NCBI GenBank assembly: GCA_025350445.1 | Contig: JANXXV010000340.1 | Location: forward strand, 1 to 25,436 | DNA: 25,436 nucleotides | From: Bryobacteraceae bacterium | Lineage (GTDB): Bacteria; Acidobacteriota; Terriglobia; Bryobacterales; Bryobacteraceae | Reading direction: 5' to 3' | Shown here: piece by piece, positions 3,975-12,319 of the stretch | Layout of the letters: the number at the start of each line of letters is the position of its first letter | Numbering within the stretch: the stretch's first letter is position 1 | The notes under the pieces: generated by a model | Seen by the model: only the letters and a program-made list of their open reading frames with translations | The model's database searches: none | Told to the model about the DNA's origin: nothing | Translations under genes and position numbers: made by a program

Positions 3975-4236
3975 GTGAGCCAAGAGCCGCCAAACAGCGA
4001 AGAGAAGCCAAGCTATGTGGAAATAGATCGGGCGGGGATGAGCTGGAGAGTGTTCGATGTGGACCGGTTGATCGGTCCCGGTCACCGCGCGCGAGCGATT
4101 TGAACGTTGGTTGGCAAGCCGAATCTGTCCGGTTTTGAAGAAGATATCCCAGCGTGAAGTATCACGCGTTTGGATCTACGGCGATAGTCTGGGGATTTCC
4201 TCGGAGCATTTGCTGGAGCGCACGATGGCGTATAAA

Positions 4237-4469
4237 CCTAAAAACGGCAGTTGACTGGCGGCAATTCGGTCAACGTCTTGAGTATCAAGCCGATGCGAGA
4301 AAAACAGTTGTCACCAGATTGGTGAGGTGCGGAGCAATTGCTTTTCGTTACCGCTCGCTGACGCGCGCGGCTCGGTAACGTACTGATTTTACTGAACCGT
4401 GACCGTCAGGGAGCGGTAACGAAAAGCTGGGATTACGGCAAAATCACAAGGTGAACTGCCGTTTTTAGG
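4237..4469. mobile_element. MITE-like non-autonomous element (233 bp) with 16-bp TIRs and 5-bp TSD
   Basis: The left end CCTAAAAACGGCAGTT (4237-4252) and its exact reverse complement (4454-4469) form a perfect 16-bp terminal inverted repeat. ATAAA stands directly outside both ends (4232-4236 and 4470-4474), as expected for a 5-bp target-site duplication. Removing the element plus one ATAAA rejoins the flanking transposase relic in frame (AYK then PGRRW), so this is an insertion into a former coding sequence. The interior holds no ORF but has nested palindromes, including a 24-bp inverted repeat with one mismatch. Ends starting CCT and an AT-rich 5-bp duplication resemble IS1380-family elements such as ISEcp1, so a related autonomous element may have mobilised it. 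That link is inference. Confidence 0.85.
4340..4427. repeat. REP-like inverted repeat pair inside the MITE
   Basis: Bases 4340-4363 and 4404-4427 are reverse complements over 24 bp with one mismatch. The left arm runs into its own palindrome (TTACCG at 4349-4354 with CGGTAA at 4373-4378), giving a compact GC-rich double-hairpin layout like REP/BIME elements. Confidence 0.75.
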
Positions 4470-4780
4470 ATAAACCAGGGCGGCGATGGTTGCGCGCGAC
4501 CGAAATCGTCAATCACCACAAATTGTCCGATTTTCATCAGAGCCAGAAGGAAGCGTTGCGGACGCTGTTCGCAGAGGTTCTGGAGTTGCCGGACGAGAAA
4601 GGGCTGAGGGGCTTAGATATGGTGATGGACGACGGCGCCAAGATGCGGGCGGTGGCCTGCAAACAGCCGTTCCGGCGGAAGCAGCTAATCGGCGAGCGGC
4701 TGGCGGCGGCCAAAGAGCTGGTCAAGGAAATGGATAAGCGATAGTAACAACTGGTAGCTACGTTATTTCCGGACCAAGCC

Positions 4781-9231: not shown

Positions 9232-11400
9232 CTATTCGCGGGCGAGTAGCGCTGCCCGCCGGACGCCGCCGTACAGCCGGACGGCGTTGCGCATCAGGCG
9301 CAACCCGCATTGATCGTCCAGGCTCAGCAGCGACTCGGGATGGAACTGCACCGCTTCAATGGGAAGGGTTCGATGGCGCACGCCCATGATGATGCCATCT
9401 TCTGTTTCCGCGGTGATCTCAAGGCAATCCGGCAAAGCATCCCGCTTGGCAAAAAGCGAATGGTAGCGACCCACCTGGAAGCGTTCGGGCAGGCCGGCAA
9501 ACACGCCCTTTCCGTCATGATTCACAGTGGACGGTTTACCATGCATCGGATAGTCCAGAACGCCAAGCCCGCCGCCGAAAGCTTCGACGATTCCCTGCAG
9601 CCCGAGGCAAACGCCGAACACGGGGATCTCGCGCGCGGCTGCGTAGCGAACCACGCCGGGCACTCCAAAGTCTTCGGGCCGGCCCGGGCCGGGAGAAATG
9701 AGAATCAGGCTGGGGGCGATTTCATCGATCAGGTGCAGCGGAAAACCGGCGCGGTAGGTAACGACAGTGGCTCCGGCCTGGCGTGCGTAATTACCCAGAG
9801 TATGGATGAAGCAATCGTCGTTGTCGATCAGCAGCATGCGTGCGCCGGCGCCGGCTTTGGCCACGGTTGAAGCCATGGCAGGCACCGCTTTCGGCTTGGG
9901 ATGAAAGGCTCGGAAGAACCCGGTGGCTTTGAGCCGCGTTTCACGCTCTTCCATTTCGGGGACCGAATCGTACAGCAGCGTCGCGCCAACCGGATACTCG
10001 GCCACGCCATCGCGCAAATGCACCGTGCGGATCAGAATGCCGGTGTTGATATCGCCATTGAGAGACAACATGCCAACCGCGCCGCCGTACCAGCCGCGCG
10101 CGTTTTTCTCCATGTTCTCAATCGCCTGCGCCGCGGCTTTCTTCGGCGCGCCAATCACGGTGACGGCCCACATGTGCGCAAGGAATGCGTCCAGCGAATC
10201 GAACTTATCCTGCAACGTTCCTTCCACGTGATCCACGGTGTGAAAGACGCCGGCGTACGATTCGATTAACCTGCGGCCGATCACTTGCACCGAGCCCGGT
10301 ACGCAGACGCGCGACTTATCGTTGCGGTCCACATCGGTACACATGGTGAGTTCCGACTCTTCCTTCTTCGAGTTGAGCAGCTCGCGAATGTTGTCGGCGT
10401 CTTTCAGCGGATCGCCGGTGCGGATGGCAGTGCCCGAGATGGGGCAGGTTTCCACGCGCGAGCCTTCCACGCGGACGAACATTTCCGGAGAGGCGCCCAC
10501 CAATTGCTCATCGCCGAGTTGCAGGAAGAATTCGTACGGGCTGGGGCTGGCCTGTTGCACGCGTTCGAACAGCTTCGCGATGCTGCCGGAATACGGCGCG
10601 GAGAAAGTCTGGCGCAGCACCACTTCGTAGTAGTCGCCGCGCTTCATGCCTTCGCGCACTTTCTCCACGTTGGCCATGTACTGTTCTTTGGTGTGATCGG
10701 AAACAATCTCGCCGGACGGAGCCTTGGGAACGCGCGGGATGGCAGCGCCTTCGCGAACAAGGCCGACGGTGGTGAGATCGCCGCGGGTGAAATTGTATTG
10801 AACGCGTTCGATTGTTTCCTTCTTGCGGTCCATCAGATAGATCTCATCGCAGAGGAACAGATGCAGGTCTTTGCGGTGGCCGCGCGGAAGCTTTAACTCG
10901 ATGGGGTCGAACTGGAAGAGCAGATCGAATCCGAATGCGCCAACGAAGGCCAGTGAAGAATCCCGTCCGGTTTCGAAATCGCGGATGAGCGCGCGCAGGA
11001 TGGAGAATACCGATGGCTGCTTGCTGCGGTCTTCTTCAGAGAAGATGCCGGATAGAGGCTTCAGCCGGCCGCGCAATGCGCCGTTTTCCAGTTCCAGATA
11101 TTCCCAGTGCGGATGGTTCTGTAGAACCGGAAACAGAATCTGGTTGATGATTTCGCCGCGCTTGTTGAGCGGCCGAAATTCAACGTGGCGGCCATAGGCA
11201 ACCACTTCGAGGGGCGGGCATATCGATCCGAAATCCCAGCGCGAATATCGCCCCGGAAATTCATAACCGGAGGAGAGGTAGATGCCTCTCTGCGTATCGA
11301 GTGCGTTCAGCAGTTTCTGCAATCCCCGTTGGTAGGGAATTTTGGATGTGCTGCGCGTAACCTCAATGCCGCTGCGAGTGAAGTACTTGAGTTGGCGCAT
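9232..11400 (-). CDS. trpEG: Fused anthranilate synthase (TrpE-TrpG)
   Basis: This 722-aa fusion combines both subunits. Residues about 1-500 are the chorismate-binding TrpE part: the N-terminal SSGYEFPGRYSRWDFGS corresponds to the tryptophan feedback region of rhizobial TrpE(G). Later come EFFLQLGDEQLVGASPEMFV, TCPISGTAIRTG, and the VIGAPKKAA and YGGAVGMLS blocks. From residue 519 a TrpG class-I glutamine amidotransferase follows, with the triad C598 (GVCLGLQG), H687 and E689 (QFHPES). Together they convert chorismate plus glutamine to anthranilate in the cytoplasm. The start is ATG 11400 (MRQLKYFTRSG), since upstream residues are not conserved. No other trp genes are in the window. A PhzE-like ADIC synthase is an alternative, but the feedback-site match favours the tryptophan pathway. 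No leader attenuator could be recognised. Confidence 0.92.
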   Translation of the reverse strand: MRQLKYFTRSGIEVTRSTSKIPYQRGLQKLLNALDTQRGIYLSSGYEFPGRYSRWDFGSICPPLEVVAYGRHVEFRPLNKRGEIINQILFPVLQNHPHWEYLELENGALRGRLKPLSGIFSEEDRSKQPSVFSILRALIRDFETGRDSSLAFVGAFGFDLLFQFDPIELKLPRGHRKDLHLFLCDEIYLMDRKKETIERVQYNFTRGDLTTVGLVREGAAIPRVPKAPSGEIVSDHTKEQYMANVEKVREGMKRGDYYEVVLRQTFSAPYSGSIAKLFERVQQASPSPYEFFLQLGDEQLVGASPEMFVRVEGSRVETCPISGTAIRTGDPLKDADNIRELLNSKKEESELTMCTDVDRNDKSRVCVPGSVQVIGRRLIESYAGVFHTVDHVEGTLQDKFDSLDAFLAHMWAVTVIGAPKKAAAQAIENMEKNARGWYGGAVGMLSLNGDINTGILIRTVHLRDGVAEYPVGATLLYDSVPEMEERETRLKATGFFRAFHPKPKAVPAMASTVAKAGAGARMLLIDNDDCFIHTLGNYARQAGATVVTYRAGFPLHLIDEIAPSLILISPGPGRPEDFGVPGVVRYAAAREIPVFGVCLGLQGIVEAFGGGLGVLDYPMHGKPSTVNHDGKGVFAGLPERFQVGRYHSLFAKRDALPDCLEITAETEDGIIMGVRHRTLPIEAVQFHPESLLSLDDQCGLRLMRNAVRLYGGVRRAALLARE

Positions 11401-11422
11401 GGGGAACCTGGAAGTCCCAAGA

Positions 11423-11432
11423 TAACATGTTA
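11423..11432. promoter_or_regulatory. 10-bp palindrome between divergent genes
   Basis: TAACATGTTA is a perfect palindrome in the 43-bp gap between trpEG (minus, ATG 11400) and the DUF6282-type gene (plus, ATG 11444). It could be an operator serving both, or a chance match overlapping AT-rich promoter sequence. Confidence 0.25.
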
Positions 11433-11443
11433 GAGTCCAATTC

Positions 11444-12319
11444 ATGAGAACGTTGTGGTTGTTTTCCATGACCGGCGCGCTGCTGGCGCAGTCCTTGACC
11501 GGAGTGGTGGACATCCATGTTCATAGCGACCCGGACAGCGTGCCGCGTTCGATAGATGCCATCGACATTGCGAAGTTGGCGAAGGCGCGGGGCATGCGCG
11601 CGCTGCTGCTGAAGAACCATTATGAACCGACCGCCTCATTGGCTTATCTGGTGCGCAAGGAGGTGCCCGGCATCGAGCTTTTCGGCGGGATTGCGCTGAA
11701 CCGCACGGTGGGCGGAATCAATCCGGCCGCGGTGGAGCGCATGACGAAAGTGAAAGGCGGTTGGGGCCGCGTGGTGTGGATGCCCACCTTTGATGCCGAG
11801 AATCAGGTCCGTTTCTCAAAAGAAAATCGTCCGTTTGTTTCCGTTTCGCGAGGGGGCGCGCTGCTGCCGGAAGTGAAGGAAGTGATTGCGCTGATTGCGA
11901 AACATCAACTGACGCTGGCCACCGGACATTCCACTCCGGAAGAAGTGTTGATGCTTATCCGCGAGGCGCGCTCACAGGGGGTCCAACGAATTGTGGTTAC
12001 CCACGCCATGCTGGCGCCGGTGCGGATGTCAGTGGCGCAGATGAGGGAAGCAGTGCAGCTGGGCGCAAAGTTGGAGTTTGTATACAACGCCTTGATTGGC
12101 CCCAACAAGATGTTCGATATTGGCCAATACGCGGAAGCGATCCGCCAGGTGGGCGTGGACGCATGCGTGCTTTCAAGCGATTTGGGGCAAGCGGGGAATC
12201 CGCTGCATCCGGATGGCCTGATGGCTTTCTTTGCCGGACTGCGAGGCCAGGGTTTTAGCGCGGCGGAAATCGAAACCATGTCGAAACGGAATCCGGCGAA
12301 ATTGTTGGGCTTAGAATGA
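11444..12319 (+). CDS. Secreted metal-dependent hydrolase, DUF6282/amidohydrolase-like
   Basis: This 291-aa protein has a short signal peptide (about residues 1-16, ending LLAQ). The mature domain starts with VDIHVHSDPDSVPRSIDA, a DxHxH metal motif (D23, H25, H27). Further candidate ligands are the His residues in LKNHYEP, LATGHSTPEE, VVTHAML, and an Asp in LSSDLGQ near the end. This order is that of a TIM-barrel amidohydrolase-superfamily enzyme and resembles the DUF6282 family. The substrate is unknown; an exported location suggests breakdown of an external compound. It opens the rightward run; the MATE gene starts 22 bp after its stop. Confidence 0.8.
   Translation: MRTLWLFSMTGALLAQSLTGVVDIHVHSDPDSVPRSIDAIDIAKLAKARGMRALLLKNHYEPTASLAYLVRKEVPGIELFGGIALNRTVGGINPAAVERMTKVKGGWGRVVWMPTFDAENQVRFSKENRPFVSVSRGGALLPEVKEVIALIAKHQLTLATGHSTPEEVLMLIREARSQGVQRIVVTHAMLAPVRMSVAQMREAVQLGAKLEFVYNALIGPNKMFDIGQYAEAIRQVGVDACVLSSDLGQAGNPLHPDGLMAFFAGLRGQGFSAAEIETMSKRNPAKLLGLE

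Follow-up and report, generated by a model that had tools for sequence, protein, structure and literature searches.

A probable IS1380-family miniature element with an inner left-end palindrome in a Bryobacteraceae bacterium

Introduction

Miniature inverted-repeat transposable elements (MITEs) of bacteria include the Chunjie MITE of Geobacter uraniireducens, which the available part of PMC10969869 describes as up to 235 bp long with conserved terminal inverted repeats (TIRs) and direct repeats, one copy lying in an operon; MITEs reported in Polaromonas are cited there as well. Tn3-derived inverted-repeat miniature elements (TIMEs), as outlined in the accessible portion of PMC4133298, are MITEs with inverted repeats and 5–6 bp duplications in AT-rich DNA. 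Here we describe a 233-bp element in a stretch of 25,436 nucleotides (contig JANXXV010000340.1, assembly GCA_025350445.1; hereafter the window, meaning the whole stretch) from a Bryobacteraceae bacterium of the Acidobacteriota. It resembles the Chunjie MITE in size, TIRs and direct repeats, a comparison by that partial description only, and is like the TIMEs in being short and non-autonomous, with inverted repeats and a duplication in AT-rich DNA; the TIMEs differ, by the same partial account, in their 38-bp Tn3-type ends and in belonging to another transposase family. A dimer within the element is also like the repetitive extragenic palindromes (REPs) and bacterial interspersed mosaic elements (BIMEs) of PMC3733652 in pairing two inverted hairpin units, and units of this kind recur in related genomes; unlike those palindromes, the dimer is nested inside a MITE.

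The closest comparison is with insertion sequences (ISs) of the IS1380 family. The defining feature of this family is CC(T) ends with 4–5 bp duplications. Its ISs, several relatives of which have 5-bp duplications, are about 1.6 kb long; ISEcp1, ISPme1 and IS1247 have CC-starting ends and an inner palindrome core, as the window element does. Unlike these ISs, the window element encodes no transposase, and its end CCTAAAAACGGCAGTT differs from the ISEcp1 end CCTAGATTCTACGT. ISPme1 and ISEcp1 take up DNA adjoining their 3′ end or lying downstream by misrecognition of a terminal structure, as stated in the available part of PMC9330008. We recognised no description of IS1380-derived MITEs or of the palindrome in the literature searched, whose scope excluded ISfinder and subscription papers. 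From the comparisons reported below, the element is likely to be an IS1380-family MITE with two ends and a left-end palindrome, the latter most likely serving as a second binding site.

Structure of the element and its insertion site

The element and its parts have the following window coordinates.

4237..4469, + strand: probable IS1380-type MITE, 233 bp (from inverted ends, duplication and relatives)
4232..4236, no strand: left target duplication ATAAA, 5 bp (from the sequence)
4470..4474, no strand: right target duplication ATAAA, 5 bp (from the sequence)
4237..4252, + strand: left TIR CCTAAAAACGGCAGTT (from repeat analysis; common to IS1380-type ISs)
4454..4469, − strand: right TIR, exact reverse complement of the left TIR
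4311..4325, + strand: inner palindrome TCACC-AGATT-GGTGA, 74 bp from the left end
4328..4336, + strand: TGCGGAGCA motif, common to several acidobacterial relatives
4342..4411, no strand: nested REP-like dimer of ~70 bp, missing in the 163–164 bp relatives
4340..4378 and 4389..4427: hairpin arms of the dimer
4351..4373, + strand: core of a REP-like unit, CCGCTCGCTGACGCGCGCGGCTC
4403..4418, − strand: part of a second, inverted REP-like unit (TACCGCTCCCTGACGG)
4225..4744 (4225..4236 plus 4475..4744), + strand: probable interrupted gene of 93 codons, with the element after codon 4

An earlier note on this DNA had described a 233-bp MITE-like element with perfect 16-bp TIRs and an ATAAA duplication directly outside both ends, and it was right on all three; the nested dimer and the conserved inner palindrome are additional features. 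The inverted repeat reaches 19 nt at 95% identity. With up to 3 mismatches, the end 16-mer occurs in the window at the two TIR sites only (shuffle mean, 0.11), and two such sites were reached by 1 of 100 shuffles. Folded as single-stranded RNA, the element gave −110 kcal/mol (z = −8.75), which none of 200 shuffles equalled, and an Rfam search returned no match. Stop codons in all six frames leave it without coding capacity. Short and noncoding, with TIRs, a target-site duplication and ends common to an autonomous IS, the window element is a MITE by every feature that was testable.

Removal of the element together with one ATAAA gives an open frame of 93 codons from the ATG at 4225, which is preceded by GGAG. 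The claim that excision restores the frame is thus true, while its use as independent proof of the boundaries did not stand. The frame has a codon-usage score of 0.229, with 25 of 58 real gene segments scoring lower and none of 290 non-coding frames higher; the gene-like usage sits in the part downstream of the element, and the upstream stretch 4069–4236 (−0.031) is not gene-like. A protein search with the 89 downstream residues retrieved only the window's own protein, and neither a homologue nor an empty site was found. The protein matched no Pfam family. The insertion target was probably a real small gene, to which no function is assigned.

Insertion sequences with the same ends

Mobilisation by an IS1380-like transposase, as suggested in the earlier note, gained support from full-length ISs outside the host that share the ends, have 5-bp duplications and encode IS1380-type transposases (G and L numbers are our designations for genomes and loci). 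Among viral contigs, eight loci had the exact end (L001–L008). L001 and L002 carry the same 1638-bp IS (L001:5953–7590; L002:1180–2817), whose L001 copy ends where the contig does; the final 127 bp of this IS recur in L007, and L006 holds the left portion of a different IS. No partner end was found within 2 mismatches at L003, L004, L005 and L008, and no full element was recognised at the three viral loci with a CCTG end variant. The L002 copy is flanked by ATTAG, has one end identical to the window's 16 bp and encodes a transposase of 514 amino acids that matches PF13701 at 86.8 bits (cut-off, 34.7). In both viral contigs the IS lies 8 bp from a gene whose product, judged by a sequence motif, resembles a DNA methyltransferase. 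Transposase searches of the viral contigs gave L001 and L002 alone; in a search with a two-transposase alignment, 7725 of 8000 scored candidate proteins reached E ≤ 1e-20.

Polaromonas sp. P1-6 has a 1630-bp IS with the duplication TTAAA, the protein of which is 46% identical to that of L002, and G697 has a full IS of 1630 bp with CTAAT; the ends of both are variants of the window's 16-bp end. CC(T) ends and 5-bp duplications are present in the IS1380-type ISs of L002, Polaromonas and G697. In Polaromonas, a 234-bp MITE whose ends are of this kind and whose duplication matches at 4 of 5 positions lies 357 bp from the IS. The Polaromonas MITEs cited in PMC10969869 may, judging from its available part, belong to the same family as the window element. 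Because the same ends bound full-length IS1380-type ISs of 1630–1638 bp with 5-bp duplications, the assignment to IS1380 is well supported.

Among the Acidobacteriota, G442 contains fragments of IS1380-type transposases and a 695-bp deleted IS1380-type element (L161:1457–2151), flanked by ATTAA, that keeps both ends, the transposase start region and a 3′ part of the transposase gene and is an intermediate between IS and MITE. In G361, a transposase 3′ end adjoins a one-letter variant of the end. No full-length acidobacterial parent IS was recovered.

Distribution of the end and of related MITEs

A scan for inverted end pairs at a separation of 186–216 bp picked out 32 stretches, spread over 12 genomes, from Gammaproteobacteria, Comamonas, other Burkholderiales, Desulfovibrionaceae, one acidobacterium, Puniceicoccales and one Faecalispora. 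The end was present in 11 of these genomes, at 1 to 216 copies, and its reversed-pattern control in none of the 12. The Faecalispora stretch (L039) was rejected as a chance match: it lacks a CCT end, and ends of this kind are absent from its genome. Similar end-bounded elements occur in Proteobacteria, Desulfovibrionaceae, Puniceicoccales and Acidobacteriota. Since elements from several phyla have these ends, the element is not specific to this lineage, as the earlier note had thought it might be; the relatives with differing 5-bp duplications that it had called for do exist in other genomes.

From 43 candidates we retained a cleaned set of 36 elements, dropping 7 (ends not of the form CCY...RGG; L041 a duplicate of L026). 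Exact 5-bp duplications flank 21 of the 36 and duplications at 4 of 5 positions another 9, as compared with 1.7 on average and 7 at most when flanks were re-paired. These and later counts include many MITE copies related by descent and are therefore not independent. As a side observation, 16 of the 21 exact duplications read as palindromes about their central base (TTGAA, TTCAA, TTTAA, ATTAT, ATAAT and others), which suggests a symmetric target site; ATAAA is not.

In a sweep of Acidobacteriota allowing one mismatch in the end, 45 of 396 genomes matched, mostly singly, and the control also matched in many genomes. Twenty-eight of the loci (L085–L112) had no element-like end pair and were set aside; G361 (L113) and G008 (L041) had one, the right end of L041 lacking RGG. 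The Puniceicoccales bacterium Pq454_bin37 (G011; L033, L051, L061 and L069) has 216 exact CCTRAAAACGGCAGTT ends in a 2.7-Mb genome, and its short candidate elements L033 (171 bp) and L051 (162 bp) are without the inner palindrome.

The inner palindrome in MITEs and insertion sequences

The palindrome TCACC-N5-GGTGA was exact in 21 of the 43 candidates and in none of 1720 dinucleotide shuffles; with at most one mismatch, the counts were 31/43 and 10/1720. In the cleaned set it was exact in 20 of 36 elements, every time 71–77 bp from one end. For ISs of the group, or the left ends of such ISs, the distance was 76–77 bp (L126, G442, G697, G872, G810 and G830), 74 bp (G503 and G544) or 87 bp (L002 and L006); L002, L126 and G697 are the full-length ISs among these, the rest being deleted, truncated or at contig ends. 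The transposase start ATG lies in the palindrome loop in the ISs of this group, except L002.

We also swept genomes for the end core followed, after 45–75 bp, by the palindrome. In the family of G003, 32 of 250 genomes matched. Among 31 matches in 30 loci, 22 of the 23 with CCY ends had the palindrome at 75–77 bp, the lone exception (68 bp) belonging to an element whose opposite end lies at 76 bp; of the 8 matches without CCY ends, one was at 75–77 bp, and that one has a degenerate end. In the order of G269, 10 of 298 genomes matched, with four CCT-end sites at 74–76 bp and eight sites without CCT ends at 64–88 bp, two of them at 75. Since exact arms were required, these sweeps are uninformative on arm conservation. 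In the 11 elements of MITE group B, the conservation score was 0.964 for the arms, 0.673 for the loop and 0.811 for the interior, and 3 of 161 same-shaped windows equalled the arms. Two genomes of the family of G003, G685 and G687, have 75 and 45 end-plus-palindrome matches, respectively, and thus harbour very large MITE families.

Beyond these relatives, we turned to plasmids, looked at another 19 loci with IS1380-family transposases and accepted a left end for 14. The exact form CACC-N5-GGTG was found in 6 of the 14: in Aliarcobacter cibarius at 77 bp, Alicyclobacillus SO9 at 76, ISEcp1 at 75, IS1247 at 98, ISPme1 at 99 and A. dauci at 109 bp. The ends of ISPme1 and IS1247 are placed to about 1 bp only, and the left ends of ISPme1, IS1247, A. 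dauci, ISEcp1, SO9 and Frondihabitans, which have no exact 5-bp duplication, are less certain. In ISEcp1 (L274:355–375, Escherichia coli plasmid NZ_CP062213.1) the extended palindrome is CTTTCACCCATTGGGTGAAAG, and its TCACC-N5-GGTGA core lies 75 bp from the left end. The actinobacterial ISs of Pseudonocardia, Frondihabitans, Nocardioides, Pseudarthrobacter and R. aetherivorans have a one-mismatch form at 109–111 bp; alone it is weak evidence, because it also occurs at 7, 133, 158 and 172 bp in these ends. The five loci whose left end could not be placed are those of A. faecis, A. acidoterrestris, Persicobacter, Microvirga and Pseudosulfitobacter; at the transposase start, A. acidoterrestris has the exact and A. 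faecis the one-mismatch form. The palindrome lies about 110 bp upstream of the annotated transposase start in ISEcp1 and about 90 bp upstream in SO9, so that in these two the spacing from the end is preserved, but not the association with the start codon.

Nearest relatives and the nested dimer

The nearest relatives are acidobacterial MITEs of 163–164 bp in G1009, G442 and G634, which have the same ends as the window element, a palindrome 74–75 bp from the left end and then TGCG(G/A)AGCA, and which, unlike the window element, lack the nested REP-like dimer. The three G1009 copies (163, 164 and 163 bp) are 74–76% identical to the first 100–105 bp of the window element; two are flanked by exact duplications (TTCAT and ATAAA) and the third by TTTAT/CTGAT, which is not exact, and the G442 and G634 copies also have no exact duplication. 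This comparison favours reading the window element as a MITE of about 164 bp with an internal REP-like dimer of about 70 bp (4342–4411).

In the order of G199, 76 of 200 genomes matched the window element at E ≤ 0.001, and among the matches listed the similarity lay mostly over element positions 114–181, that is, the dimer. The dimer also occurs alone, as in a G199 copy without MITE ends, and the first REP core unit was found within 1 mismatch in 2 of 15 selected genomes. REP-like dimers are present in many of the genomes in the order of G199 (e.g., L217–L228), with up to 331 first-look candidates in one genome. In G1040, two sites have a REP-like dimer after a palindrome-and-motif region resembling that of the window: L250 with an exact palindrome and one degenerate end, and L251 with a decayed palindrome and no recognisable end. 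These sites weakly suggest that the composite of MITE and dimer may be a lineage of some age rather than a one-off event.

Interior similarity to the window element was compared with 500 shuffles. The numbers of shuffles that did at least as well, for the whole interior and for its left part, were 0 and 2 for L152, 9 and 0 for G008, 34 and 14 for L142, 80 and 40 for L032, 236 and 92 for L113, 228 and 103 for L118, and 233 and 85 for the Polaromonas MITE. The GCGGAGCA motif was present in 6 of 9 acidobacterial candidates (excluding L041, which repeats L026), in 2 of 33 others and in 31 of 2150 shuffles. In ISs, the TGCGGAGCA letters encode A-E-Q near the transposase C-terminus, and the motif is a possible relic of an internal deletion.

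Discussion

The element would have been moved in trans by an IS1380-type transposase, an identity that follows from the ISs sharing its ends. The ATAAA duplication indicates insertion at an AT-rich 5-bp site, then duplicated, which placed the element after codon 4 of the small gene. The left ~90 bp likely correspond to an IS left end up to the transposase start, most of the gene having been lost; the ~70-bp dimer is nested in the window copy, as the relatives without it show. The palindrome about 76 bp from one end is most likely a second binding site, presumably for the transposase or a host factor, and its binding together with the left end would mark the fixed end and perhaps repress the transposase gene. 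Its recurrence in ISs and MITEs points to a cis site at the left end of IS1380-family elements, to which the transposase perhaps binds.

A more tentative proposal, which we rate as somewhat less likely than not, is that the whole IS1380 family, ISEcp1 included, has a cis site at the left end only, about 76 bp from it or in ~11-bp steps beyond (74–77, 87, 98–99 and 109–111 bp), so that the transposase would sit on the same helix face as at the end, the left end being fixed and the right permissive. The spacing classes, noticed after the fact in few independent lineages, suggest steps of one helical turn. If true, a left-end-only site would account both for the capture of genes on one side only by ISEcp1 and ISPme1 and for the retention of the palindrome in many MITEs. 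One end sequence ties IS1380-type ISs to miniature derivatives across several phyla, and the inner site at nearly fixed spacing is common to ISEcp1, which picks up resistance genes lying next to it. Should left-end function require this site, the one-sidedness of the family, so far without explanation, could be tested directly. The window element is also an example of a MITE carrying a REP-like dimer.

Several findings weigh against assigning the element to an IS1380 family marked by such a site. The L002 transposase matches NF033539, the NCBIfam model of IS1380 (E 7e-45), with 153.4 bits, under the curated cut-off of 180. Even at one mismatch, 12 of the 43 candidates have no palindrome, among them the real-looking L009, L016, L025, L035 and L142 and the Puniceicoccales elements L033 and L051, and no such form was found in the ISs of Streptomyces, Kocuria and R. 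opacus at their start. In MITE group A (18 elements), arms scored 0.939 against 0.930 for the rest, with 101 of 163 windows as good. Among the five copies in the nearest relatives, the palindrome is exact in one (1/3 in G1009), has one mismatch in three (2/3 in G1009, and G442) and is more degraded in G634.

These last two points also favour the idea that the palindrome is a regulatory relic only: an operator, or a hairpin in the RNA, at the transposase start codon, which MITEs inherited and have so far retained and which plays no part in movement. The overlap with the start codon in L126, L006, G442, G697, G544 and A. cibarius speaks for it as well. Against it, the palindrome of ISEcp1 and SO9 lies far upstream of the start yet 75–76 bp from the end, and group B MITEs keep the arms while the loop, which holds the ATG in ISs, varies; we regard a mere relic as rather unlikely, though a serious contender. 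Unlikely, too, is that the MITE consists of an end pair around unrelated DNA and did not arise by internal deletion of an IS, the palindrome and TGCGGAGCA having arisen or been kept otherwise. BLAST alignments of the window element with ISs, which span at most 35 bp at the ends, and the failure to recover a full-length acidobacterial parent agree with such an origin, whereas the palindrome at the IS distance, the enrichment of the GCGGAGCA motif in acidobacterial candidates and the 695-bp deleted IS in G442 with such ends favour internal deletion.

The remaining alternatives concern the nature of the element itself. That a transposase of another family moves it, the ends being shared with IS1380-type ISs by coincidence, would accord with the lack of a visible IS within the window; it is very improbable, given that the end, the 5-bp duplications and the palindrome distance are all shared with IS1380-type ISs and that the Polaromonas MITE lies so close to one. 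An immobile REP/BIME-type hairpin cluster or RNA structure, with no transposon at all, might explain the strong folding and the central REP-like dimer, whose units occur alone elsewhere, but it is contradicted by dimer-less relatives that share the element's ends and are flanked by exact duplications at two distinct sites, as well as by end-bounded relatives in several phyla, and can hardly be entertained.

Other features of the window

The genes of the window are in keeping with an acidobacterium. At 9232–11514 on the − strand, the window encodes a fusion of a chorismate-binding enzyme with a glutamine amidotransferase (760 amino acids), the best matches of which in 30 large Acidobacteriota genomes were partial and at most 50% identical. 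The best match of the window's DinG among 60 Acidobacteriota genomes chosen by size was 58% identical and came from G269.
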